This document shows, piece by piece, positions 12,591 to 62,405 of a stretch of 64,000 nt of DNA. A program made the position numbers and the translations under genes. Below the pieces are notes generated by a model. The model was not told where the DNA came from. It was given only the letters and a program-made list of their open reading frames with translations, and did not search any database. Position 1 is the first letter of the stretch; each line of letters starts with the position of its first letter. This stretch comes from Geomonas limicola (GTDB lineage Bacteria > Desulfobacterota > Desulfuromonadia > Geobacterales > Geobacteraceae). The stretch lies in assembly GCF_014193675.1 (NCBI RefSeq), contig NZ_BLXZ01000008.1, positions 62,001 to 126,000 on the forward strand, in the 5' to 3' direction.

Positions 12591-13523
12591 ATGATTGCAA
12601 CGAGAGACGCCTACGGCGAGACCCTGGCTGAGCTGGGCGCCGAAAACGATAAGATCGTGGCCCTGGACGCCGACCTGTCCGGTTCCACCAAGACCGGCGT
12701 GTTCGCCAAGAAATTCCCGGAGCGCTTCTTCAACTGCGGCATCGCCGAGGCCAACATGGTGGGTACCGCCGCCGGCCTCGCCGCCGTAGGGAAGATCCCC
12801 TTCGTCTCCACCTTCGCCATTTTCGCCGCCGGCCGCGGCTGGGAGCAGATCCGCCAGTCGGTCGCCTACCCCAAGGCCAACGTGAAGATCGTCGCCACCC
12901 ACGGCGGGGTCACCGTCGGCGAGGACGGCGGTTCGCACCAGTCCGTCGAGGACGTGGCGATCATGCGCGCCATCCCCAACATGACCGTGATCGTGCCGGC
13001 CGACGGCGAGGAGACCAAGGCCGCCATCCGCGCGGTTGCCGCCTACAAGGGGCCGGTCTACGTGCGCCTGGGGCGCAACAAGGTCCCCAGCATCTTCCCG
13101 GCCGGGCACACCTTCGAGATCGGCAAGGGTAACCAGGTGGTGGATGGCTCCGACCTCACCTTCATCACCACCGGCCTGATGACCGCCGCCGCGGTGACCG
13201 CCGCCGAGAAGCTCAAGGCGGAAGGGATCTCCGCACGCGTGGTGCACCTGGGGACCGTGAAGCCGCTCGACAAGGAGCTGGTTCTGAAGGCTGCCGAGGA
13301 GACCGGCGCCATCATCACCGCCGAGGAGCACTCCGTGGTGGGCGGCCTGGGCGGCGCAGTGGCCGAGTTCCTCGCCGAGAACTGCCCGACCCTCATGAAG
13401 CGGGTCGGCGTCTACGACCGTTTCGGCACCTCGGGCAAGGCCGACGAGCTCTTGAAGTACTTCGGCCTCAACGCCGAGACCCTCATCGAGGAAGCCAGGG
13501 AGATCCTTCCGAGGAAAAAATGA
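12591..13523 (+). CDS. Transketolase, C-terminal (pyrimidine binding plus C-terminal domain) subunit
   Basis: The 310-residue partner of the preceding gene has a transketolase pyrimidine-binding domain (about 1-165, with the catalytic Glu in NCGIAEANMVGTAAG and THGGVTVGEDGGSHQSVEDVA) and a transketolase C-terminal domain (about 180-310). The split arrangement is common in archaea and many anaerobes. Its last codon overlaps the next gene in an ATGA arrangement. Confidence 0.95.
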   Translation: MIATRDAYGETLAELGAENDKIVALDADLSGSTKTGVFAKKFPERFFNCGIAEANMVGTAAGLAAVGKIPFVSTFAIFAAGRGWEQIRQSVAYPKANVKIVATHGGVTVGEDGGSHQSVEDVAIMRAIPNMTVIVPADGEETKAAIRAVAAYKGPVYVRLGRNKVPSIFPAGHTFEIGKGNQVVDGSDLTFITTGLMTAAAVTAAEKLKAEGISARVVHLGTVKPLDKELVLKAAEETGAIITAEEHSVVGGLGGAVAEFLAENCPTLMKRVGVYDRFGTSGKADELLKYFGLNAETLIEEAREILPRKK

Positions 13524-14119
13524 CCCCTCATCCGCTCCGCTCGCAGGCCGGACTGACCTACATCGCCACGATCATCATGGTGGTGATCCTGGGGATCATG
13601 CTCTCCCAGGGGGCACAGTACTGGACTACCCGGATGCAGCGCGAGCGCGAGGTGGAGCTCCTTTTCCGCGGAACCCAGGTCCGGGACGCCCTGAGGATCT
13701 GGTACGGCTTCAAGCCCCCTTCCACCGACTCGAACGGGAGGCAGACACCGGCGAGCGACGGGTCGCTGACCGGTGCGGTAAAGCGGCCGCCGCTGTCGGA
13801 GTTGAAGATGCTCCTGAGTAACCCGGGTCAGGCGGGACGGGCCCGTTACCTGCGTCCCTCGAACCTGGTGGATCCCATCACCGGCAAGGAGTGGGCGGTG
13901 GTGAAGGACGCTTCGCAGCGCATCGTCGGGGTGGCCAGTACCAGCGAGAAGCAGCCTCTCAAACAGGCCAACTTCCCGCTGGACCTCGATCCGCAGGATT
14001 TCGAGGGGAAGAAGAAGTACAGCGAGTGGCAGTTCATCTACAACCACTACCCGAAGCCGGGTGGCGGCGGGTATCAGAAAAACCTGAACCCCGAGTCTCC
14101 CACTCCCCAGGGGAAATAG
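13520..14119 (+). CDS. Pseudopilin-like / type II secretion-like protein
   Basis: The 199-residue protein has a type IV pilin-like N-terminus (SQAGLTYIATIIMVVILGIML): a short polar leader, Gly before a hydrophobic helix, and Thr at +2. The Glu normally at +5 is Ala, as in minor pseudopilins of the GspK type. The rest resembles Geobacter GspG-like proteins (QREREVELLFRGTQVRDALRIWY, NLVDPITGKEWAVVKD). It overlaps the transketolase stop codon by ATGA, so the two are translationally coupled although the functional link is obscure. A terminator follows. Confidence 0.7.
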   Translation: MTPHPLRSQAGLTYIATIIMVVILGIMLSQGAQYWTTRMQREREVELLFRGTQVRDALRIWYGFKPPSTDSNGRQTPASDGSLTGAVKRPPLSELKMLLSNPGQAGRARYLRPSNLVDPITGKEWAVVKDASQRIVGVASTSEKQPLKQANFPLDLDPQDFEGKKKYSEWQFIYNHYPKPGGGGYQKNLNPESPTPQGK

Positions 14120-14173: not shown

Positions 14174-14196
14174 GCCCGGCCTGGCCGGGCTTTTTC
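14174..14196 (+). terminator. Intrinsic terminator after the transketolase operon
   Basis: A perfect 7-bp stem GCCCGGC-CTG-GCCGGGC is followed by TTTTTC. It separates the transketolase/pseudopilin operon from the two-component operon. Confidence 0.85.
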
Positions 14197-14261
14197 GGCA
14201 GTAGGCCGATCGCCAGGAGCCCCGGGGCTCGCGACCCCTTTACGCCTTACGCGGAGGTACT

Positions 14262-15761
14262 CTGAAATTCAAGAGTCTGACAACGAGGGTCATCCTCCTT
14301 ACGATCGCCCTACTCATCTTCGGCATCGGGACCTTTGCGGGTCTGACCCTGCGCCGCGAGCAGCAGCAGCTCATCAACTCCGCCCGTGAGAGCAGCGACC
14401 TTCTGCTCAACACCATCGAGCGCAGCGTCTACAACTCGATGCGCATCGGCAACACCGAGGATGTCCAGGTCATCCTGGAGATGGTCGGCCAGAACGAGAA
14501 GCTGGTCGGCGTGCGCATCTTCCACCCGCACGGCGTGATCCTCAAGTCGTCCCAGCCCGGCGAGGTGGGGCGTCCGGTCGACGAGCGGGACTTCAAGCTT
14601 TTCCTGGACAACAAGCGCGAAGGTGTCTTCAACCTCCCCGGGCACGGTGAAGTGCTCGGCATGGTGAAGCCGATCTACAACGACCGGCAGTGCAACCTCT
14701 GCCACGGTTCCAAGAGCCGGATCATCGGCCTTTTGAACGTGAACTACTCGCTGGTGGAGACCAGGAGCAAGATCGTCGAGCTCACCAAGCTCTTCGCCGC
14801 CTCCACCTTCGCCATCATCTTCTTCCTCTCGGCGGCGATCTCCATCGTCATGGTCCGCTTCGTCAAGAAGCCGCTCTCCCGGATGGCCGAGAACATGGCC
14901 AAAGTCGAGGCGGGGGACCTTTCGGTGCGCATGACCTCGCACGGCCAGGACGAGATCGGCAGGCTGATCCTCTCCTTCGACTCCATGGTGGACCGGCTGG
15001 ACCGGGCCAAGAAGGAGCTCGAGGCCTACCACTTCCAGCAGATGGAGCGCGCCGACCGGCTCGCCTCGGTAGGGGAGATGGCCGCCGGCATCGCGCACGA
15101 GATCAAGAACCCGCTGACCGGCATCGCCGCCGCGATGACCGTCATCAAGGACGACTTCTCCGAGGGGGACTCCCGCATCGGCATCATCAACGAGGTGCTC
15201 GAGCAGATCTCCCGGCTGGACAAGACGGTGAACGACCTGCTCTTCTTCGGCAAGCCGACCATCTCGGAGCCGGCCTGTACCGACATGAACCAGGCGCTCA
15301 AGAAGATCCTGGTCTTCGCCTCGCAGCACCGCGGCGGCAAGGACATCCAGAAGCAGCTCGACCTCGAGGAGAACCTCCCGCCGGTCTACGTGGACCCCAA
15401 GCACATCCAGCAGGTGTTTTTGAACCTGTTTCTGAACGCGGTGCAGGCGATGGCCAACGGCGGCACCCTCACCGTGCAGAGCCGTCGGGTGCTCGTCGAC
15501 GGCGAGGACCTGGTGCAGGTGAAGGTCACCGACACCGGTCAGGGGATCCCGCCCAACATCCTGGAAAAGATTTTCACCCCGTTCTTCACCACCAAGGCCC
15601 AGGGGACCGGTCTGGGCCTGGCCATCAGCCACCGGCTGATCGAGCAGCACGGGGGACGTTTGACCGTCGTGAGCGAATGCGGCCAGGGGACCACCTTCAC
15701 GGTGGAACTCCCGGCCTTCGGCAGCGACGGGGAGTGCAAGTTGCCCGACGCGGAAGCCTGA
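14262..15761 (+). CDS. Sensor histidine kinase with periplasmic CxxCH haem motif (probable CTG start)
   Basis: The ~499-residue membrane kinase has TM1 (about 8-28), a periplasmic sensor (30-180), TM2 (about 183-205), HAMP, HisKA with phosphorylatable His in AAGIAHEIKNPLTG, and HATPase (DTGQGIPPN, GTGLGLAISHRL). The sensor holds QCNLCHG, a c-type haem-binding CxxCH, just before TM2. The frame is open to a stop at 14202 with no ATG, GTG or TTG before 14439. Starting at 14439 would delete TM1 and part of the sensor. CTG 14262, 4 nt after GGAGG, gives a normal signal anchor, so a CTG start is proposed. The sigma-54 activator downstream is the likely partner. Confidence 0.88.
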   Translation: MKFKSLTTRVILLTIALLIFGIGTFAGLTLRREQQQLINSARESSDLLLNTIERSVYNSMRIGNTEDVQVILEMVGQNEKLVGVRIFHPHGVILKSSQPGEVGRPVDERDFKLFLDNKREGVFNLPGHGEVLGMVKPIYNDRQCNLCHGSKSRIIGLLNVNYSLVETRSKIVELTKLFAASTFAIIFFLSAAISIVMVRFVKKPLSRMAENMAKVEAGDLSVRMTSHGQDEIGRLILSFDSMVDRLDRAKKELEAYHFQQMERADRLASVGEMAAGIAHEIKNPLTGIAAAMTVIKDDFSEGDSRIGIINEVLEQISRLDKTVNDLLFFGKPTISEPACTDMNQALKKILVFASQHRGGKDIQKQLDLEENLPPVYVDPKHIQQVFLNLFLNAVQAMANGGTLTVQSRRVLVDGEDLVQVKVTDTGQGIPPNILEKIFTPFFTTKAQGTGLGLAISHRLIEQHGGRLTVVSECGQGTTFTVELPAFGSDGECKLPDAEA

Positions 15762-15828: not shown

Positions 15829-17202
<1,374 letters not shown>

Positions 17203-17430: not shown

Positions 17431-18537
17431 TTAAATCTTCACCAGCTGGTACTCCCTGGTCCCCAGCCCGATCTTCTCCGCGTGCTCCAGCTGCACCTCC
17501 CAGTCGATCTCCGGGTGCACCCCGCGGAACTTGTCGCCGCCCGGCTCATGTCCGCTCGAGAGGGCCGTGTTCTCGTTACCGCGCGCGTTGTTCACCAGGT
17601 CCGCGCAGGCCTGGTCCAGCGCAACGGGATCGGTCGAGGCGCAGATGCCGATGTCGTTCACGATCGGCGCGTCGGCGTGCCCGTAGCAGTCGCAGGCGGG
17701 CGACACCTGGGTGATGAAGTTGAGGTACAGGGTCTTCTCACGCTTGCCGGCAACCGACCCCAGGGCGTACTCGGCCATCTTGCGCATCACAAGCGAGGCG
17801 CTCTCGTTCCACTGGATGTTGATCGCCTTCTGCAGGCAGGCGGTGATGCAGCGGCTGCACCCGACGCAGGCCTCCGGATCGATGCGCGCCTTCCCCTCCA
17901 GGATGCTGATCGCCTCGTGGGCACAAGATTTCAGGCAGATTGAGCAGCCGTTGCAGAACTTCTCGGCCACCTTGGGTGCCACCGTGGAGTGCTGCTGCAT
18001 CTTGCCGGTACGGCTCGCGCACCCCATCCCCAGGTTCTTCAGGGTTCCGCCGAAGCCGGTCAGTTCGTGGCACTTGAAGTGTGAGACCGCGATGAGGGCG
18101 TGCGCCTCGACGATCTCCGTGCCGATGGAGACGCTCTTCAGGAGCTCCCCCTCAATGGGGACGTCCACGGCGGTATGCCCGCGCAGGCCGTCGCTCATGA
18201 TGAGCGGGGCTCCGACCACCGCGTAGGCGAAGCCGTTTTCGATGGCGCAGACCAGGGCGCTCGCCGCCTCCTTGCGCTCGCCGGGGTACAGGGTCGAGGA
18301 GTCGGTCAGAAAGGGGATTCCCCCTTTGGCCTTGATCTCGTCCACCACCCGGCGCACGAAGATCGGGCGTACGAAGGCGTGGTTCCCCTTCTCCCCGAAG
18401 TGCACCTTTACCGCGGTCAGGTCCCCCTTGGCGACAACACGCTCCAGACCCGCCTCCTGCATCAGCCGGCCGATCTTGGCAAACAGGTTCTCGCGCGAAC
18501 CGGCCCTCATGTCGGCGAAAAATACCTTGCTGGACAT
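17431..18537 (-). CDS. DUF362 domain protein with two [4Fe-4S] ferredoxin motifs
   Basis: The 368-residue soluble protein has a DUF362 fold (VKVHFGEKGNHAFVRP near residue 45, SHFKCHELTGFGGTLKNLGMG near 155). Inserted into it is a bacterial ferredoxin pair (CNGCSICLKSC and CVGCSRCITAC, about 190-235). Such proteins are proposed to act in anaerobic electron transfer, but substrates are unknown. The gene is monocistronic, with its start at ATG 18537. Confidence 0.88.
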   Translation of the reverse strand: MSSKVFFADMRAGSRENLFAKIGRLMQEAGLERVVAKGDLTAVKVHFGEKGNHAFVRPIFVRRVVDEIKAKGGIPFLTDSSTLYPGERKEAASALVCAIENGFAYAVVGAPLIMSDGLRGHTAVDVPIEGELLKSVSIGTEIVEAHALIAVSHFKCHELTGFGGTLKNLGMGCASRTGKMQQHSTVAPKVAEKFCNGCSICLKSCAHEAISILEGKARIDPEACVGCSRCITACLQKAINIQWNESASLVMRKMAEYALGSVAGKREKTLYLNFITQVSPACDCYGHADAPIVNDIGICASTDPVALDQACADLVNNARGNENTALSSGHEPGGDKFRGVHPEIDWEVQLEHAEKIGLGTREYQLVKI

Positions 18538-19986: not shown

Positions 19987-20726
19987 ATGCCTCTCCAGTC
20001 CGCAAACGGGCTGAACCAGCCGGCCGGCATCCTTTGGGTACGCTCCCTGCCGGTTCAGGTGTGGATACTGCTGCGGTCGGGGTTGGGAACTCGGGTGGGC
20101 TCCGGGGCTGGAGCCGCGTCGCGTTTGGGGACGACGCTTTCCCAATCTGTTCGGCACCGGGAAGAGAAAGTTTAGGCGAAATAGTGAAAAAATTTTGTAT
20201 TCCGCGGCAGCCTGCCGTCAACCAAAAGCCGCCCGAGGGCTCGAGGGGCCTCGCTCTGCCACCGTTTCGAGCGCGCTGGCGGAGCTGCTCTCAGGGCTGG
20301 TGGACAGAGGGCTGTGACACTCGCCCGGCTCCTTGGGTTGCTGGCTGTCGCCGAGGCGGGGACCCGAGCCCAGCACTGATCTGGCGTCGAAGCTGCACTA
20401 GATCCGGTGGGAGTGGTTCGGCATAGGGGTAGGTAGTCTTCTAGCGCCAGCTCAGGTGCTGCTAATAACTGATTTATTAAAAATCTTGACATGTTTGTCC
20501 TAAAGATATTAATTCTTTCTGCCCACAGCCTCCGCCGCGCCTGCGGGACAACCTGGCATTTCCCCTTGCTGACTCGGTGTTTTAGGCCGTCCAGAGAGCG
20601 GAGCGCCCGGTTGCCGTGGCAGAACTGCGCCGCACTGCTGCCTGCACGACCCATAGAGATCCTCAATTCGCATCTTCTGCGCACTGCCAGGTAAAACCCT
20701 TGCTCAACGACGTCAGAGTCCGACAC
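19987..20726. other. Long intergenic region with a putative sigma-70 promoter
   Basis: About 740 bases without a gene I can support. At 20486-20491 there is TTGACA with AT-rich -10 candidates (TATTAA at 20507, TTAATT at 20509), pointing toward the hybrid kinase. The G+C-rich part, 20170-20450, has no convincing ORF, tRNA or riboswitch. The kinase may start anywhere from 20616 to 20727. Confidence 0.4.
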
Positions 20727-23714
20727 ATGCCCCACACCACAGCTGACATTCACGACATCGTCGTGCCTGCTACCGTGCTGGTTGTAGAAAAGAGCGCCGA
20801 CCCCCTGCTGCCCACCGGCCGGCTCCTCGAGGAGGCCGGCTACAGCGTGATCCTGGGTAACAGTGCTGCCCAGGCGCTTTCGCTCACCTCGCTGTACCGC
20901 CCGGACCTCCTGCTTCTGGACGATGAACTCGTCGACGGCTGCGCCGAGGAACTGGTCACGGCCATCAAAAGCGACCCGCAGCTCTCCGGAGTGTTCGTCG
21001 TGCTGCAGACGGCGCAGCGTCAGCGTTACGGTTCCTTGGCGGCGGGGCGGCGCAAGGGAGGCCCGGACGCCTTCCTGGTCTCCCCTTGCCAGGGGCTCGA
21101 ACTTCTGGACCGGGTGGCGGAGTACCTTTGCCTGCGGGGTGCCCGCGAGCAACTCAGGGAGAGCGAGCGGCGTTACCGTACCCTGTTCCTGGGAACCGAA
21201 AAGGGGATCGCACTCCTCGAGATCATCAGCAGCGAATCCGGCATCCCCTACGATTGCCGCTTTCTCGAGGTAAACCCCGCCTTCGAACAGTTGGTCGGGC
21301 TTCCGGCGGCGCAACTGGTCGGTCACTCCGTGCCGGAGGTGCTGCCGGGTTCGGCTGCTCTTTGGGCTCAGGCCTACGGGCGGGTGGCGCTCTCCGGCCA
21401 GGCCATGCTCCTCGACGAGTACCTCGGGGTAGGGGGACGCTCCTGCCAGATTGAGATCCACGCACCTCAGCCCGGGCGGCTCTCCTGCATCTTTATCGAC
21501 GCCACCCAGCGCAGGTCCCTCGAAAATCAGCTTGCTGCCACCGAAGAGCGCTGCCGGGCACTCATCGCAGCCTTCGATGGCTCGGTCTATACCTGCTCCC
21601 CGGACTACCGCATCACCTACATGAACGACGAGCTGATCCGGCGTCGCGGCAACGGGGTGGGACAACTATGCTACCAGGCGCTGCACGACCTCGAAGAGGT
21701 CTGCCCCTGGTGCGTCAACGACCGGGTCTTTCGGGGGGAACGGGTCGCCTGGGAGGTGAAGAGTCCCAAGGACGACCGCTGGTACCACTGCATCAACACC
21801 CCGGTGCACCACGATGACGGCAGTATCTCCAAGCTGGCCCTGATCCGCGACATCACCCACCTCAAAGAGGCCGAGGCCGAACTCAAGTTCAAGAACTTCA
21901 CCTTCGAGAACCTGGGCGCGGAGGTCTTCTGGCTCAGCTCGGATTGCCGGATCATGGATCTGAACCGGGTCGCCTGCGAGAACCTGGGCTATACGCGGGA
22001 GGAACTCGTGGGGCGTCCGGTAGGGGAGATCGACCCGAACTTCGACGCCGAGAGGGCCCGGCGGGCCTGGATCGAGCTCAAGGAGCGGGGGACCCGGCAG
22101 TTCGAGACCACCCACCAGGCCAAGGACGGGCGCTGCTATCCGGTCGAGGTGCTGGCCAACTACCTGAACCACGAAGGGCTTGAGTACAACTGCTGCATTG
22201 TGCGGGACATAAGCGAGCGCAAGCGCCTCGAGAGCGCCCTCCACGACGGCAGAGAACTCTTCCGTACCCTGTGCGATTCGGCTCCCATCGGCATCTTCCG
22301 CTGCGACGCGCAGTGGAACAACATCTACTGCAACGCGCGCTGGGAGGAGATCACCGGGTTGTTCGCCAGCCAGGGCGCCGGCAACGGCTGGCAGACCGCC
22401 ATCCACCCGGACGACCGCGAGGATCTCTTACGGGTGCGCAGCGAGGCGACCGCACGAGGCCAGGGGTACTGTCACGAGCACCGCAAGCTGACTGCCCAGG
22501 GGAAGGTGGTCTGGGTCCGGGTTCTGGTGAACCCGATCAAGGACCAGCAGGGGGCGATCGTAGGGTACGTCGGGACGGTTGAGGACATCACCGAACTGCG
22601 CCTGGCCCGCCAGGAGATCCTCAAGGCCCAGAAGCTCGAGTCGATCGGAGTCCTGGCCGGGGGGATCGCCCACGACTTCAACAACATCCTGACCGCGGTC
22701 TTGGGGAACATCTCGCTGGCCGGCTTCCAGCTCGATGACCCGAAAAAGGTGGCCGAGCGACTGGAGGAGGCGGAGAGCGCCGCAGCGCGCGCCCGCGACC
22801 TCACCCAGCAACTGCTCACCTTCGCCCGTGGCGGCGAGCCGGTAAAGAAGAGCCTCGAGCTTGCCGGCCTGCTCAGGGAGGCGGTCGCCTTCGGGCTGCA
22901 CGGCTCCCAGGTCGGCTGCGAGCTGAGGCTCGACGATGATCTCTGGCCGCTGGAGGCCGACGAGGGGCAGCTGGTGCAGGTAGTGCACAACCTGGTGCTC
23001 AACGCGGTCCAGGCGATGCCCGAGGGGGGGACGCTGGTGGTCGCCGCAGCCAACCACCGGGGTCCCCACGGGGATCCCTTCGTCGAGATCAGCGTTACGG
23101 ATACCGGCATCGGCATCTCCGAGCAGCACCTCGAGCGGATCTTCGATCCCTACTTCACCACCAAGAAACAGGGGAGCGGCCTCGGGCTCGCCTCCTGCTA
23201 CTCCATCGTGAAGAGGCACTTGGGGACCATCACGGCGCAGTCGATCCTGGGGCAGGGGAGCACCTTCCGGGTGCTGCTCCCGGCTTCCCGTGAGCGTTCC
23301 GTATCGGCTGCTCGCAGCGAGATGGGCGTCTCCGGTGGCGCGAGCCGTGTCCTGGTGATGGACGACGAGGAGATCGTGCGCACCCTTGCCAAGGCGATTC
23401 TGGAACAGTTGGGTTACCAGGCCGAATGCGTGGAGAACGGTGCGCAGGCCGCCGAGCTCTACCAGCACGAGAAAGAAGGGGGCGAGCCGTTTTCGGTGGT
23501 GATCCTCGACCTCACCGTTCCCGGCGGTGTCGGTGGAAAAGAGGCCATCAAGATGCTGCGCAGCTACGACCCGCAGGTCAGGGCGGTGGTCTGCAGCGGC
23601 TACTCCACCGATCCCGTGATGGCCAACTTCAGGGAGTACGGTTTCAACGCGGTGCTCGCCAAACCCTACCGCCCCCACGACCTAAGCCGCGTGCTGCGCG
23701 AGGTCCTCGCCTAG
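20727..23714 (+). CDS. Cytoplasmic multi-PAS hybrid histidine kinase with N- and C-terminal receiver domains
   Basis: The ~995-residue protein has no membrane segment. In order it has an N-terminal receiver (LLLLDDELVDG), about four PAS/PAC domains spanning roughly residues 140-630, HisKA with IAHDFNNILTAVLGN, HATPase (DTGIGIS, GSGLGLASCYSIV), and a C-terminal receiver (acceptor Asp in VVILDLTVPGG, Lys in LAKPYR). A receiver-PAS-kinase-receiver layout suggests integration of an upstream phosphorelay with small-molecule signals. The start is uncertain. ATG 20727 opens the conserved region but has a weak ribosome binding site; TTG 20700 and GTG 20616 are alternatives. Confidence 0.9.
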   Translation: MPHTTADIHDIVVPATVLVVEKSADPLLPTGRLLEEAGYSVILGNSAAQALSLTSLYRPDLLLLDDELVDGCAEELVTAIKSDPQLSGVFVVLQTAQRQRYGSLAAGRRKGGPDAFLVSPCQGLELLDRVAEYLCLRGAREQLRESERRYRTLFLGTEKGIALLEIISSESGIPYDCRFLEVNPAFEQLVGLPAAQLVGHSVPEVLPGSAALWAQAYGRVALSGQAMLLDEYLGVGGRSCQIEIHAPQPGRLSCIFIDATQRRSLENQLAATEERCRALIAAFDGSVYTCSPDYRITYMNDELIRRRGNGVGQLCYQALHDLEEVCPWCVNDRVFRGERVAWEVKSPKDDRWYHCINTPVHHDDGSISKLALIRDITHLKEAEAELKFKNFTFENLGAEVFWLSSDCRIMDLNRVACENLGYTREELVGRPVGEIDPNFDAERARRAWIELKERGTRQFETTHQAKDGRCYPVEVLANYLNHEGLEYNCCIVRDISERKRLESALHDGRELFRTLCDSAPIGIFRCDAQWNNIYCNARWEEITGLFASQGAGNGWQTAIHPDDREDLLRVRSEATARGQGYCHEHRKLTAQGKVVWVRVLVNPIKDQQGAIVGYVGTVEDITELRLARQEILKAQKLESIGVLAGGIAHDFNNILTAVLGNISLAGFQLDDPKKVAERLEEAESAAARARDLTQQLLTFARGGEPVKKSLELAGLLREAVAFGLHGSQVGCELRLDDDLWPLEADEGQLVQVVHNLVLNAVQAMPEGGTLVVAAANHRGPHGDPFVEISVTDTGIGISEQHLERIFDPYFTTKKQGSGLGLASCYSIVKRHLGTITAQSILGQGSTFRVLLPASRERSVSAARSEMGVSGGASRVLVMDDEEIVRTLAKAILEQLGYQAECVENGAQAAELYQHEKEGGEPFSVVILDLTVPGGVGGKEAIKMLRSYDPQVRAVVCSGYSTDPVMANFREYGFNAVLAKPYRPHDLSRVLREVLA

Positions 23715-26189: not shown

Positions 26190-29189
26190 TCACCCCAGCG
26201 CCTCCTTGACCTTCTCGCTCAGGCTCGCCAGGTTGAAGGGCTTCGCGATGAAGTGGACCTCTTGGTTGCCCTGGTAGCGCTCGGAAAGCTCGCTTGCTGG
26301 GTAGCCCGACATGAAGACCACCTTGGTTCCCGGGCGCAGCACCTGGATCCGCTCCACCAGTTCGCGGCCGTTCAGCTCGGGCATCACGATATCGCTCAGC
26401 ACCAGGTCGATCGGGAGCGAGCCGCACAGGGCCAGTGCCTGCCCCGGTGTGGTCGCCGTGTGCACCGTGTAGCCCAGCACCTTCAGCATCGACTCCGCCA
26501 GCCGCAGCACCTCCGGGTCGTCCTCCACCACCAGGATGGTCTCCTTCCCCGGCAGCGGCAGCGCCGCCGGCTCCGGCGCCTGCGTCAGGGCCTCGGCCTC
26601 GCGCGGCAGGAAGATCAGGAAGCTCGTGCCCCGGTCCGGCTCGCTCTCCACCGTGATCAATCCGTGGTTCTGTACCACGATGCCATAGATGGTGGCGAGG
26701 CCGAGCCCGGTCCCCTTGCCGGTCTCCTTGGTGGTGAAGAAGGGCTCGAAGATGTGCCGGCGTACCTCCCCGGTCATCCCGGTGCCGGTGTCCGAGAAGA
26801 CCATCCGGACGTAGTCGCCCGGCGGGGCCTCGAAGGGCTCCAGCAGGTCGGGGTCCTCGACCCGGACGTTGTCGGTACTGATGCGGAGGCTCCCCCCCTG
26901 GGGCATGGCGTCGCGCGCGTTCACTGCCAGGTTCATGACGATCTGGTCCAGCTGGATCGGGTCGATGAGCACCCTCCAGAGCTGGTCGGAGAGCTGATAG
27001 CTGAGCGTGATATCCTCGCCGATCAGGCGCGGTAGCGTCTTTTGGGTGGCCTGCAACGCGGCGCTCAGGTTCATGGGCTGGGGCCTGATCAACTGCTTGC
27101 GCGAGAAGGTGAGCAACTGCGCGGTGATGTCGCGCGAGTGCTCTGCCGCCTGCTGGATGGCGTCCAGCTGCTCCTGGAGCTTCTGGGCCGCCGGGTACTG
27201 CAGCTTGATGAGCTCGGCATACCCCAGGATCACCGAGAGCTTGTTGTTGAAGTCGTGGGCAACCCCGCCGGCCAGCCGCCCCACCGATTCCATCTTCTGG
27301 GCCTGGCGCAGCTGCTCCTCCAGTTTGCGGTGCTCGGTGATGTCCAGGGCGATGCCGGTGGTCCCCAGCACCTTGCCGTTGCGGTCGATGACCGGCGTCT
27401 TGCAGGTGATGGCCCAGCGTGTCCCGCGCGGCGTGGCGATCTGCTCCTCCACCTGCACGCTGAGTCCACTGGCGCAGACCTCCCGGTCGTCGGCCATGTA
27501 CTTCTCGGCCAGGGTGTCCGGGAAAAGGTCCAGGTCGGTCTTGCCCAGGCACTCTTCGACGTTGCGACCGCAGGACTCGGCGTAGGCGGCGTTCACCATT
27601 TCCAGTCGCCCCTCGGTGTCCTTGAGCCAGGCCATCATGGGGAGGTTGTCCAGGATGGAGCGCTGGCGCAGTTGCAGGCGCTCGGTGGCCTCCGCGTGCC
27701 GCTTCTGTTCGGTAACGTCGGCGAGCATCACCATAAGGTGAGGGGACTCTCCCTGCTGCAGGATGTCCGCCGAGTAGAGCAGGTCGAGCACGTTGCCGTC
27801 CTTGCGGGTAAGGCGCAGGTCGCGGTTCACCACCTTGCCGGTTATCCGGATGGCGGTGACCATGCCGTCGCGCACCTCGGGGCTGGGGTAGAGGTTTAGT
27901 TCCGTGGTTGTCCGGCCCAGCACCTCCTGGCGCTGATACCCGAAGAGGCTGAGCCAGGAGTCGTTCACCTCGAGGAGCTTGCCGGAGGCCAGTTCCCCGA
28001 TGCCGATCGCCAGCGGCGAGTGGTCGAAGACCGCTCGGAAGCGGCGGGCGCTATCCTTCGCCTGGCGTTCGGCGTGGGCGATGCGCCTGTTCTGCAGGGC
28101 AAGGGCGGTGACCGACAGGCTGAGCATCACGATGACCGCCAGCAGCGCGCTCAGCTCGACCCGGTAGCGGTGCCACAGCGTCATCGGGCGGTTCAGTAAT
28201 ACCGTTTCCTGAGGCAGCGCCGAAGCCGAGGCGCCCCAACGGGTCAGCTGGTCCCAGTTGAACATGGGCTTGATGAAGGCGGAGTTGGGCTCCAATGCCA
28301 CCTGGCGCCCCGGCTCGAAGGCGACGATGGCGCGCCCCAGCACGGCGCCGGCGGCCTGGAAGTCGATCACCGATCCCCCCAGGATGCCGGTGTCCAGGTA
28401 GGCGGAGGTGACCCCGAAGGTGGGGACCGGCGCGGCGGCAACGATGCGCTGCAGGACGTCGCGGGGCACGAAGATCTTTCCGGTGCGGTCTGCAGTTACG
28501 ATGGAGTAGAGGATGATGGTGTCTTGGGAGAGCTTGGGGAGCTGTTGCACCAGTTCGTCGATGGAGCGCTCGCCCAGGTACTCGAAGTTGAGCTTGCCGG
28601 CGAACAGGCGGTCGAACTCGGCGCGGGCGCGCTGTTCCACCGCTTGGTTGGTGCGCGAGTTGCCCGCGACGAAGAGCACCCGCTTGGTTTTGGGGAAGAG
28701 CTTCAGGGCGAGCTTCAGGGTTCCGGCGCAGTCGTAGCTTATGGGGCTTGCGGTGATCTGCCGGTCACTGTGGGAGAAGTCGCGGTTGGGGAGGCAGAAC
28801 AGGGCGATGCAGGGGGTGCCGGGGGAGAGGTCCTTCCCCTCGTTGAGCAGGAAGTCCAGCGCCTGATCGTAGACCGTCACGACCAGGTCGAAGTGTTGCC
28901 CGGCGTACTTACTGAGCAGCAAGCGGCGCAGCTCCTGGTTCTGGGTGGCCGAGCGCGGGGGGGCCACGTCGAGGTATTCGTGCAGCACGTTCCCCAGCGG
29001 GATGTGCGAGCTCTTGCTCACCGTTTCCAGCCCCTCGGCAATGTCCTGTTGTGCCGGGAGGTTGTAGTTGTACGAGTAGAGCACCAGGATCCGCTTTTGC
29101 GGTGCGGACCCGGGGAGGGGAGCGGCATATGCCGCTGCAGCCCAGAGCAGGCTCAGCAGGGTTCCCAGCAGGAAAAGAGTAGGTTTCAT
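26190..29189 (-). CDS. Hybrid histidine kinase with periplasmic ABC-type substrate-binding-like sensor
   Basis: The 999-residue protein has a signal peptide (1-22), a periplasmic domain (about 30-345) beginning KRILVLYSYNYNLPAQQDIAEGL that resembles ABC substrate-binding proteins, and a membrane helix (about 350-375). Two PAS domains (about 390-620), HisKA (GGVAHDFNNKLSVILG), HATPase (DTGTGMTG, GTGLGLATIYGIV) and a receiver (LVLSDIVMPELNG, IAKPF) follow. It senses an extracytoplasmic solute, not identifiable here. The gene is monocistronic on the reverse strand with a weak ribosome binding site. Confidence 0.92.
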   Translation of the reverse strand: MKPTLFLLGTLLSLLWAAAAYAAPLPGSAPQKRILVLYSYNYNLPAQQDIAEGLETVSKSSHIPLGNVLHEYLDVAPPRSATQNQELRRLLLSKYAGQHFDLVVTVYDQALDFLLNEGKDLSPGTPCIALFCLPNRDFSHSDRQITASPISYDCAGTLKLALKLFPKTKRVLFVAGNSRTNQAVEQRARAEFDRLFAGKLNFEYLGERSIDELVQQLPKLSQDTIILYSIVTADRTGKIFVPRDVLQRIVAAAPVPTFGVTSAYLDTGILGGSVIDFQAAGAVLGRAIVAFEPGRQVALEPNSAFIKPMFNWDQLTRWGASASALPQETVLLNRPMTLWHRYRVELSALLAVIVMLSLSVTALALQNRRIAHAERQAKDSARRFRAVFDHSPLAIGIGELASGKLLEVNDSWLSLFGYQRQEVLGRTTTELNLYPSPEVRDGMVTAIRITGKVVNRDLRLTRKDGNVLDLLYSADILQQGESPHLMVMLADVTEQKRHAEATERLQLRQRSILDNLPMMAWLKDTEGRLEMVNAAYAESCGRNVEECLGKTDLDLFPDTLAEKYMADDREVCASGLSVQVEEQIATPRGTRWAITCKTPVIDRNGKVLGTTGIALDITEHRKLEEQLRQAQKMESVGRLAGGVAHDFNNKLSVILGYAELIKLQYPAAQKLQEQLDAIQQAAEHSRDITAQLLTFSRKQLIRPQPMNLSAALQATQKTLPRLIGEDITLSYQLSDQLWRVLIDPIQLDQIVMNLAVNARDAMPQGGSLRISTDNVRVEDPDLLEPFEAPPGDYVRMVFSDTGTGMTGEVRRHIFEPFFTTKETGKGTGLGLATIYGIVVQNHGLITVESEPDRGTSFLIFLPREAEALTQAPEPAALPLPGKETILVVEDDPEVLRLAESMLKVLGYTVHTATTPGQALALCGSLPIDLVLSDIVMPELNGRELVERIQVLRPGTKVVFMSGYPASELSERYQGNQEVHFIAKPFNLASLSEKVKEALG

Positions 29190-29316
29190 GCCGACGGTTA
29201 TAGTCCGAGAACTCCGGTAAAGTCAACAAGAGTAGAGCGCAAGTATACATTAATACCTGAGCAACTCTGATCACTTCCACGCCGGTGCCTCTGGGCGAGG
29301 GAGGTGGTGGTCAGTC

Positions 29317-59511: not shown

Positions 59512-59825
59512 CACCCAGCTACAGTTCGAAAGAAACCAGGGGAGCGCCCTTTCGGTTAATAACGATGAAGAGGGCCAGTCATGATGACTGGCCCTCTTCA
59601 TTTTGCGGGAGGTTCCTTGGCCGCCAACCTTCCTGTCGATGACAGGTGCCCCTCGGGGGATTAGCGATAGACAAAGAAGAAACACTGTGTCAGATTAAAC
59701 CGCACCTGCGCTGTGGCCGCACTCCCACTGGGGTCTGCCGCCAGCGGACTACACTTTCGCTTCAGGCGTGCCGATAGGTATCGGTAACGGTTCAAAACCT
59801 ACGGTCTGCGGCAAGAGGAACGCCA
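59512..59825. other. Intergenic region
   Basis: It contains the terminator of the MFS gene at 59567-59604. The remaining bases hold no gene, only a short GATAGGTATC palindrome-like word near 59772. Confidence 0.5.
59567..59604 (+). terminator. Intrinsic terminator after MFS gene
   Basis: GAAGAGGGCCAGTC / GACTGGCCCTCTTC is a perfect 14-bp stem with a 5-base loop, followed by ATTTT. Confidence 0.85.
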
Positions 59826-62405
59826 ATGGGTGGCTTTTCCCTGACAACGGCAATGGTGATCGCCTGCCTGATGTCCCTGATGATCTTCGGGTTTCTGGTC
59901 GCGCTTTCGCGCGGTCAGCGTTCGGGACAGTTCTCGACCTCGTACCGCCTTTTGGGGATCGCCTACCTCTTTAACGGGCTCAGACTGATCTGCCAACTCC
60001 TCTCAGTGGCGTCCCTGCCCGGGCTTACCATCGCGGGGGATTTCTGCTACCTGGCATTTATCACCACGTTCTGGTTCGGGATGCGCTTATACGTGCGCCC
60101 CGAGCCCGCTAACCGGCGCCTCGTCCTGGTCCCGGCCCTCCTCTTCGCCTGGATCCTCTTCTCGCGTCTCACCGGCGTCCCCATCCCCTGGCTGTTCGTC
60201 CCGCAACACGCGGTGGGAACGGGCATCTTCCTGCTCTCCGGCTACCATGTCTGGCGCCTGCACCGGGAGAGGACCAACTACGATCTGCTGGTGCTCGCCC
60301 TCATGATGTGGACCCAGGGGATCAGCACGGCAACCTACCCCTTCACCCGGCACACCTGGTACGCCCCCTACGGCTTCGCGCTCTTCGCGCTGTTGGCCTC
60401 TGCCATCGGCATGGGGCTCATGGTCGCGGCGCTGCGCGAGGAACAGCGGGAGCTCGAGACGGAGATAGCCGCGCGCAGGGAGGCCGAGAAGACCCGCGAG
60501 GAGTCCCTGGCCTTCATCGAAACCCTGCTCGCCGAGTCACCGACCGGCATCGTCGTCTTCGAAGGCACCACCGGGGAGTGCGTGCACGCCAACTCAAGAA
60601 TTGCCGAAATGATCGGAGGCCCGGTCGAATCGGTCCGCGGACAGAACTTCAGGTCGATCGAGTCGTGGCAGCGAGGGGCGGTAACGGCCGTCGCGGAACA
60701 GACCCTCAGGGACGGAATCACCCGGTCCGCGGAGCTCAACCAGGAAACCAGCTTCGGGAAAAGCGTCTTCCTGGAGTGCTACCTCTCCCGCTTCACGGTC
60801 GACGGGATTTCCTACCTCCTGGTGGTGGCCTCCGACATATCGGAGCGTAAGCGTTCGGAGGCGCTGCTGCGCGAGAGCGAGGACCGGCTCCGCAGCATCC
60901 TGAAGACCGCCATCGACGGCTTCTGGATACTGGACCCGCAGGGGAGGGTCCTCGAAGTGAACGACTCTTACTGCCGCATGAGCGGCTACGCCAAGGAGGA
61001 ACTGCTGGGAGAGCAGATCGGCCTGGTGGAGGATGTCGAACTCGCCGAGGAGACGACGGCACATATCCGGCGCCTGAAGGACCTGGGGAAGGAACGCTTC
61101 GAGACGCGGCACCGTCGCAAGGACGGGAGCAGCTTCGAGGTCGAGGTCAGCGTCCAGTACCTCCCCTCCGGGATGTTCGTGGCTTTCATCCGGGACCTTT
61201 CCCAGCGCAAGACCGACGAGGCGGAACGCCGCCGCCTGGAGGAGCAACTGCAACAGTCCCTCAAGATGGAGTCGGTGGGGCGCCTGGCGGGGGGAGTGGC
61301 GCACGACTTCAACAACATGCTCTCGGTGATCATCGGGCACGCCAACCTGGCGCTGATGCGGCTCGAGAAGGGGGACGGCCAAAAACTTCGCTCGGACCTC
61401 GATCAGATCGGCAAGGCAGCGGAACGCTCGGCAGGGCTCACCCGTCAGCTTCTCGCCTTTGCCCGCAAGCAGACCATCGCACCAAAATCGCTCGACATGA
61501 ACCTGGCGGTCAAGGGGATGCTCGGGATGCTGCGGCGTATCATCGGCGAAAATATCGAGCTTAGCTGGAACCCCGCTGCGGGGCTCTGGCCGGTGAAGAT
61601 GGATCCCAGCCAGCTGGACCAGGTGCTCGCCAACCTCTGTGTGAACGCGCGGGATGCCATACGTGACGTCGGCAGGATCGTGATAGAAGTGGCGAACCGC
61701 AGCTTCGACGGCAACTACCGGGCGACGCACCTCGAGGTACTGGGGACCGACTACGTCCTCCTGACCGTGCGCGACGACGGTTGCGGCATGGACCCGGAGA
61801 CGCTCCCGCACATCTTCGAACCGTTCTTCACCACCAAGGCCCTGGGGGAGGGGACCGGGCTCGGCCTGGCCACCGTGTACGGGATCGTGAAGCAAAACGA
61901 CGGCTTTATCGACGTGGCGAGCGAGCCGGGAGTGGGGACCACCTTCAGTATCTACCTCCCGCGGCACCTGGAGGCCGGAGAGTCCCTGGCGCTTCCGGAG
62001 CGGGAGCGGGTTGCCGAGGGGGGAGACGAGACCATCCTCCTCGTGGAGGACGAGCCGGCCATCCTGGACATGGCTACCCAGATCCTGGCCGGTCAGGGGT
62101 ACCGTGTCCTGACGGCGCAGGCACCGGGCGAGGCGATCGCACTCATGCTGGAGCACCGGGGGGTGGTCGACCTGCTGGTGACCGACGTGGTGATGCCGGA
62201 GATGAACGGGCGCGACCTTGCCCAGAGCCTGAAGAAATTGAACCCCGAGCTGCGCTGTCTCTTCATTTCCGGGTACACGGCCGACATCATCGCGCCGCAC
62301 GGGCTGCTGGAGCCCGGTGTCTGCTTCCTGGAAAAGCCGTTCAACCTGGGCGACCTGGCCGCGAAGGTCCGCGAGGTCCTCGACGGCGTCGTTATCTCAA
62401 GTTGA
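59826..62405 (+). CDS. Membrane-bound hybrid histidine kinase (7-TM sensor)
   Basis: The 859-residue protein has about seven membrane helices in residues 1-205, then two PAS domains (about 240-345 and 350-470; first ends DISERKRSE). HisKA (AGGVAHDFNNMLSVIIGHA), HATPase (DDGCGMDPE, GTGLGLATVYGIV) and a C-terminal receiver (LLVTDVVMPEMNG, LEKPFN) follow. The 7-TM sensor points to a membrane or redox signal. The start is ATG 59826, after AGAGGAACGCC. Confidence 0.93.
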   Translation: MGGFSLTTAMVIACLMSLMIFGFLVALSRGQRSGQFSTSYRLLGIAYLFNGLRLICQLLSVASLPGLTIAGDFCYLAFITTFWFGMRLYVRPEPANRRLVLVPALLFAWILFSRLTGVPIPWLFVPQHAVGTGIFLLSGYHVWRLHRERTNYDLLVLALMMWTQGISTATYPFTRHTWYAPYGFALFALLASAIGMGLMVAALREEQRELETEIAARREAEKTREESLAFIETLLAESPTGIVVFEGTTGECVHANSRIAEMIGGPVESVRGQNFRSIESWQRGAVTAVAEQTLRDGITRSAELNQETSFGKSVFLECYLSRFTVDGISYLLVVASDISERKRSEALLRESEDRLRSILKTAIDGFWILDPQGRVLEVNDSYCRMSGYAKEELLGEQIGLVEDVELAEETTAHIRRLKDLGKERFETRHRRKDGSSFEVEVSVQYLPSGMFVAFIRDLSQRKTDEAERRRLEEQLQQSLKMESVGRLAGGVAHDFNNMLSVIIGHANLALMRLEKGDGQKLRSDLDQIGKAAERSAGLTRQLLAFARKQTIAPKSLDMNLAVKGMLGMLRRIIGENIELSWNPAAGLWPVKMDPSQLDQVLANLCVNARDAIRDVGRIVIEVANRSFDGNYRATHLEVLGTDYVLLTVRDDGCGMDPETLPHIFEPFFTTKALGEGTGLGLATVYGIVKQNDGFIDVASEPGVGTTFSIYLPRHLEAGESLALPERERVAEGGDETILLVEDEPAILDMATQILAGQGYRVLTAQAPGEAIALMLEHRGVVDLLVTDVVMPEMNGRDLAQSLKKLNPELRCLFISGYTADIIAPHGLLEPGVCFLEKPFNLGDLAAKVREVLDGVVISS

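Follow-up and report, generated by a model that had tools for sequence, protein, structure and literature searches.

The sensor histidine kinase gene studied here, located in a 64-kb stretch of DNA (hereafter the window, meaning the whole stretch analysed), very probably starts at a CTG codon, encodes a putative c-haem Cache sensor domain and acquired its start through a single change from TTG to CTG, with a low dose of the sensor as the likely consequence. The unusual part is the presence of CTG in one branch of the family. The sensor itself can be assigned to a known kind (PF21563, c-haem Cache), and the haem kinase is thus not new in itself. As far as sequence comparison reaches, the position of the start, its conservation, its single origin, the domain family and the invariance of Met60 and of CxxCH are established; haem attachment, ligand and signal are predicted. 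The features on which this reading is built are collected in Table 1.

Table 1. Features of the kinase locus, in window coordinates, and two loci of genome G000
Feature	Position	Strand	Basis or remark
Terminator-like hairpin and T run	14174..14190	+	between upstream prepilin-like gene and kinase
In-frame stop TAG	14202..14204	+	5' of kinase
Shine-Dalgarno GGAGG	14253..14257	+	4 nt before CTG
Sensor histidine kinase, 499 aa	14262..15761	+	Pfam HAMP, HisKA, HATPase_c
CTG start codon	14262..14264	+	orthologue comparison
TM1, residues about 10-28	14289..14345	+	read from sequence; predicted helix 6-62
Predicted periplasmic sensor domain of the haem-Cache (PAS-like) kind, residues about 29-172	14346..14777	+	PF21563, fold search
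Met60 codon, first in-frame ATG, not a start	14439..14441	+	predicted distal haem ligand
CNLCH, predicted c-type haem attachment motif, residues 144-148	14691..14705	+	conservation
TM2, residues about 174-197	14781..14852	+	read from sequence
HAMP	14850..15002	+	Pfam
HisKA dimerisation/phosphoacceptor, H279-E280	15072..15254	+	Pfam
HATPase_c catalytic domain	15393..15716	+	Pfam
NtrC-type response regulator (receiver, sigma-54 AAA+, Fis HTH)	15829..17202	+
Two initiator tRNA genes	G000:C3:8908-8927 and 291496-291515		L177, L178

The start codon in the window and among orthologues

The initial annotation, made from the letters of the window, had proposed that no canonical start codon lies in the kinase frame between the stop at 14202 and position 14439, and re-reading of the frame gave the same result, the first in-frame ATG, GTG or TTG after the TAG being the ATG at 14439. 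The GGAGG that it had noticed 4 nt upstream of the CTG is indeed present, and its view that this CTG precedes an intact TM1 agrees with the orthologues, in which both the start position and the hydrophobic first helix are kept.

Matches to the kinase were retrieved from all 19 genomes of the genus and, at a threshold of 1e-130, from 36 of the 48 genomes of the family (these 19 included), as well as from 26 named loci; removal of 21 identical coding sequences from the 62 rows left 41 distinct orthologues. The 12 family genomes that gave no match at this threshold include G033 and all eight members of genus g13. The aligned start codon is CTG in 21 orthologues and TTG in 18, and the two remaining genes begin one codon further on, with TTG (L063) or ATG (L064), so that the downstream ATG starts lacking TM1 which could have spoken against the early reading were found in none of the 41. 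The set of 21 is made up of the 19 genus members together with Geomesophilobacter (L065) and a further genus (L066). To judge from these alignments, the CxxCH motif, the GGAG core and the placement of the start are all conserved more than chance would allow.

In a protein tree built without the first residue, the genes starting with CTG formed one clade with a support of 100/100, recovered in all 200 bootstrap trees, and two changes in all were enough to account for the start-codon states; the tree gave a long-branch warning, with no long branch inside the CTG clade. In the order as a whole, a match at 1e-30 was obtained in 80 of 117 genomes, and 44 further loci were examined, four of which repeat earlier rows, leaving 40 new and a total of 81 distinct orthologues. 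Within one codon of the aligned place, these 40 present ATG (19), GTG (9) or TTG (8), and CTG occurs at that place in none of them, which brings its share to 21 of the 81. The last four (L135, L140, L141 and L144) have no canonical codon near the aligned place and offer TTG or GTG candidates at least 11 codons upstream. These four genes come from a single other family within the order, and their products seem to be extended at the N-terminus from those candidates.

Upstream of the start, between positions -30 and -10, the majority base is found in only 0.28-0.64 of 39 loci. A conserved upstream start was considered and rejected, as the alignment of the 41 orthologues contains none in common. 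The terminator-like hairpin that precedes the kinase belongs to a 4.1-kb region in which three such sites were found vs 3.8 expected by shuffling, and its perfect-stem version is present only in the window and in its sister L082 (2 of 41 loci). For 14196-14320, the predicted RNA structure is somewhat more stable than those of shuffled sequences (z -2.0), of which 9 in 200 were as low. Fold energies of the -30 to +30 segment had medians of -13.0 kcal/mol for CTG and -10.8 kcal/mol for TTG orthologues, with overlapping ranges.

The predicted haem-binding sensor and its partner regulator

Two hydrophobic stretches, read from the alignment, flank the sensor domain, and the HAMP domain comes after the second. 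The periplasmic domain had been described as ending with QCNLCHG; the motif is there (residues 143-149), but some 20-25 residues follow it before TM2, so that its terminal position was not retained. Conservation of CxxCH had been put forward as a check on the haem-sensor reading, and the motif proved to be present in 41 of 41 and then in 40 of 40 further orthologues, that is in all 81. The same holds for Met60, with identical counts.

The haem-sensor reading is supported by family profile and by fold, both pointing to a putative c-haem domain, and less strongly by single-sequence search. The window protein reaches 22.7 bits against PF21563, vs a cut-off of 27; the cut-off is passed by 14 of the 19 genus orthologues, two of them only when neighbouring matches are counted, and all 27 sensors scanned match the profile at E-values up to 0.1. 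PF11845 was matched weakly by 11 of these 27 sensors, and the window member was not among the matches listed. By phmmer, residue 60 of the kinase is aligned with position 26 of 3b42 and CxxCH with CxxCH, a weak alignment (E 0.95); the sequence E-values to 3b42 were 0.95 and 0.24, and unrelated chains ranked higher in both searches. When H110 of the 3b42 chain is taken as His144, position 26 corresponds to Met60 of GSU0935. Since His144 and Met60 ligate the haem in one subunit of GSU0935, according to the accessible part of PMC8396549, Met60 of the kinase is the predicted sixth ligand.

The predicted structure (pLDDT 80, pTM 0.59) gives the sensor a Cache/PAS-like fold. Foldseek returned haem-free WalK domains as best matches and, further down, 3b42 (E 5.7e-5 and 2.5e-4), CitA, DcuS and 3b47 (E 3.5e-3); the VIA-align rows were WalK, CitA and DcuS. 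Superposition of the model on 3b42 and 3b47 yielded low TM-scores (0.27-0.47, with rmsd of 13-15), which swapped dimers could explain, though short of proof. Among loci of the MCP type and others, a simple Met motif was absent from 12 CxxCH loci, and in L100 it occurred only after CxxCH; L127, which belongs to these 12, is an orthologue of the kinase and has Met60 by alignment, so this simple motif overlooks real cases. Neither the Met motif nor CxxCH was found in L004, L032, L033 and L034, and a joint variation of Met60 and CxxCH in paralogues is anecdotal.

The phosphoacceptor H279 is invariant in the 41 orthologues, and an NtrC-type regulator comes directly after the kinase at each of the 40 other orthologous loci, in line with the earlier claim that the downstream regulator is of the sigma-54 type. 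Kinase and regulator can be assigned as a two-component pair of the NtrC type. Conserved sigma-54 target promoters near either gene were rejected, a strict -24/-12 scan of the loci giving no conserved site there.

As far as the available stretches reach, gene order is kept in the loci of the family: metH is followed by a small ORF, two transketolase halves, the prepilin-like gene and lastly the kinase with its regulator. L063 and L064 gave no match to either the transketolase or the prepilin gene. The prepilin-like gene (13520-14119) overlaps the transketolase C half, at the 3' end of the latter, by 4 nt and shows an N-terminal hydrophobic stretch, a weak NCBIfam prepilin match (E 0.003) and no Pfam match; at 38 of 40 other loci, a match to it lies upstream of the kinase. 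Downstream of the regulator, on the minus strand, 17431-18537 encodes a DUF362 protein with 4Fe-4S motifs, whose distance varies between loci, so that a regulatory link is not supported. The 64-kb window also encodes three hybrid PAS histidine kinases with receiver domains, at 20616-23714, 26190-29222 (minus strand) and 59778-62405.

Rarity and retention of the CTG codon

CTG represents 0.024% of bacterial start codons, and CUG was found in earlier E. coli work to be 0.86% as efficient as AUG, both figures as quoted in passages of PMC11497404. A single UUG-to-CUG switch was counted among 2,468 ancestral UUG starts (PMC5622118, in part), and conserved non-AUG starts in chloroplasts are the subject of PMC9845219, judging from its accessible portion. 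Within the open-access literature, as far as its available excerpts go, no clade-conserved CTG start in a sensor kinase was found.

CTG was not observed at the aligned start of the neighbouring genes, which begin with ATG, GTG or TTG in 40 of 40 loci for the regulator (ATG 31, GTG 5, TTG 4), in 36 of 38 for the transketolase C half and in 19 of 20 for the DUF362 gene. Among 26 ORFs of the window picked by codon composition, a CTG preceded by a Shine-Dalgarno sequence and combined with a late canonical codon (the first one lying more than 70 codons into the open frame) occurs in two, the kinase and the DUF362 gene; the CTG of the latter is probably due to chance, since 19 of 20 orthologues begin at the codon aligned with its ATG. 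A survey of CTG starts covered 179 genes common to a 300-kb part of G004 and a 308-kb part of G012, of which 105 had a conserved ATG, GTG or TTG start supported by a Shine-Dalgarno sequence and 74 remained without a call, so that rare CTG starts could be missed. CTG won in four genes, inside the range of eight decoy codons (0 to 6 each), and these four were highly identical upstream (0.73-0.93) and scored no more than 0.4; the kinase scored 1.8 to 5.0 in the same scheme (four comparisons). No second convincing CTG start in the clade thus emerged from these 179 genes, 74 of them without a call. A general habit of the clade to start genes with CTG was not seen, CTG wins being no commoner than those of decoys.

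Within the CTG clade, 45 alignment columns are leucine in all 21 orthologues, and a single codon is kept only at codons 1 and 434. Judged by rank, the evidence that selection acts on the CTG is modest (about 1 in 20), and conservation is general over the first 20 codons. The GGAGG is complete in 21 of 21 CTG vs 10 of 18 TTG orthologues (Fisher p 0.0007, with related genomes treated as independent), and in the CTG set its spacer measures 4 nt in 17 genes and 5 nt in four. The single origin of the CTG is one evolutionary event. The natural reading of the retained codon would be a low sensor dose, which may be of benefit.

The CTG may also be a start without special meaning, produced by one TTG-to-CTG mutation that drifted to fixation while the strong GGAGG ensures enough kinase, a possibility that we do not consider small, though somewhat less likely than not. 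The protein tree implies a single origin only, and among the 44 other all-leucine columns one is likewise fixed as CTG and six more have CTG in 18 to 20 of the 21 genes, making the persistence of the codon only moderately unusual. Yet any change of its first base, to A, G or T, would create a stronger start, and none has occurred in the 21 genomes, while 97 of 103 fourfold sites changed meanwhile (6 of 103 are invariant); known start-codon switches, as described in the available part of PMC5622118, also favour stronger starts. It is hardly credible, on the other hand, that the CTG is unused and that translation begins instead at ATG 14439 or at codon 12, a GTG within TM1. Gene callers avoiding CTG would pick one of these two codons, and the GTG exists in 16 of the 21 CTG orthologues, where it may serve as a second start, but it is missing in the window and in L082; the window has no canonical codon before 14439, which encodes the invariant Met60, aligned with the distal ligand of GSU0935, so that a start there would remove TM1 and the first part of the sensor. 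Moreover, residues 3-11 are conserved as protein, with silent changes, and the TTG relatives begin at the aligned codon. In L082, the closest relative (95% identical), an in-frame stop lies five codons 5' of the CTG and none of the four codons in between is a start codon, leaving as usable start the CTG or the adjacent ATA, which follows the CTG in L082 and is replaced by AAA in the window.

Nor is the haem reading without a competitor, as CxxCH might form a disulphide, a zinc site or another thiol switch in a haem-free Cache domain, in keeping with the haem-free Cache and WalK domains that head the structural matches. We regard this as very unlikely: CxxCH occurs together with Met60 in the same 81 orthologues, PF21563 and the crystallised c-haem domains 3b42 and 3b47 are recognised by profile and by fold, and the Tll0287-like family has CxxCH in about 99% of its members, with bound haem, according to the accessible text of a preprint (PMC12889525).

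A coincidence with the initiator tRNA deserves mention. A pattern search detected the initiator tRNA core twice in each of 20 drawn genomes of the CTG clade; in 27 other genomes of the family it was detected once in 25 and not at all in two. G007, G028 and G045 gave an additional single hit with different following bases, and ARAGORN reports in G047 a further tRNA-Met gene that the pattern does not match, so that the pattern may undercount the copies in certain genomes. The 18 copies that were read (those of Table 1 and L179-L194) are ordinary, with the three G-C pairs of the anticodon stem intact, and an altered initiator tRNA as cause of CTG use is thus not supported. The occurrence of the CTG start and of a second initiator tRNA gene on one branch is a single coincidence and no evidence of cause. 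From that shared branch one might read the CTG as a maintained translational throttle, with an output set by the levels of initiator tRNA and initiation factors and a sensor dose tied, in this clade, to the translational state, a reading that seems improbable to us.

Proposed mechanism and known systems

We propose that translation from CTG 14262 would yield a membrane sensor kinase in which TM1 and TM2 flank a periplasmic Cache/PAS-like domain carrying one covalent c-type haem, attached to C144-x-x-C147-H148, its sixth ligand being probably Met60. When this haem is oxidised and loses Met60, or when it binds NO, the sensor dimer would be altered; by way of HAMP this would affect how H279 is autophosphorylated and, in turn, phosphotransfer to the adjacent sigma-54 regulator. 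Kinase activity would thus be controlled by the haem state, with redox or NO as presumed input. The start codon would have changed from TTG to CTG once, in the ancestor of the Geomonas/Citrifermentans/Geomesophilobacter branch, and been kept thereafter with a full GGAGG, the likely effect being a low sensor dose relative to the regulator. A weak start kept over a whole clade offers a natural test of the idea that selection uses such starts to hold sensor kinases at low numbers. Gene models are concerned too, as a tool avoiding CTG would begin the window protein at Met60, so that TM1 would be lost and the predicted haem ligand would be taken for the initiator methionine.

The closest known sensors are those of GSU0935 and GSU0582, chemoreceptors of Geobacter sulfurreducens (3b42 and 3b47) after whose sensor type PF21563 is named. 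They share with the kinase an aligned CxxCH and, as predicted for the kinase, the TM-sensor-TM layout, and Met60 of the kinase is aligned, at a weak E-value, with the Met60 ligand of GSU0935. In contrast, their output is that of a chemoreceptor instead of a histidine kinase, and the identity of the window sensor to their domains is low (18-19% in the fold alignment). In GSU0935 and GSU0582, Met60 is released on oxidation, CO is bound by the reduced haem only and NO by the haem in either form, as stated in PMC8396549. The same paper lists GSU2916 of G. sulfurreducens as a two-component protein with one c-haem motif. Judging by its gene neighbourhood, GSU2916 is presumably the orthologue of the window kinase. 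The sCache_heme domains (DUF3365/Tll0287, PF11845) resemble the window kinase in their Cache-like fold, in a CxxCH segment placed between strands and in their fused signalling modules; the haem-Cache proteins tested for NO are, unlike the window kinase, from Pseudomonas, and NO dissociates slowly from one of them (preprint PMC12889525, in part). As for the start codon, CTG accounts for 0.7% of mapped starts in Caulobacter, as stated in excerpts of PMC4117421, and initiation at CTG is a likeness to the kinase. Unlike this example, the CTG of the kinase goes back to a TTG and is shared throughout a clade of 21 genomes.
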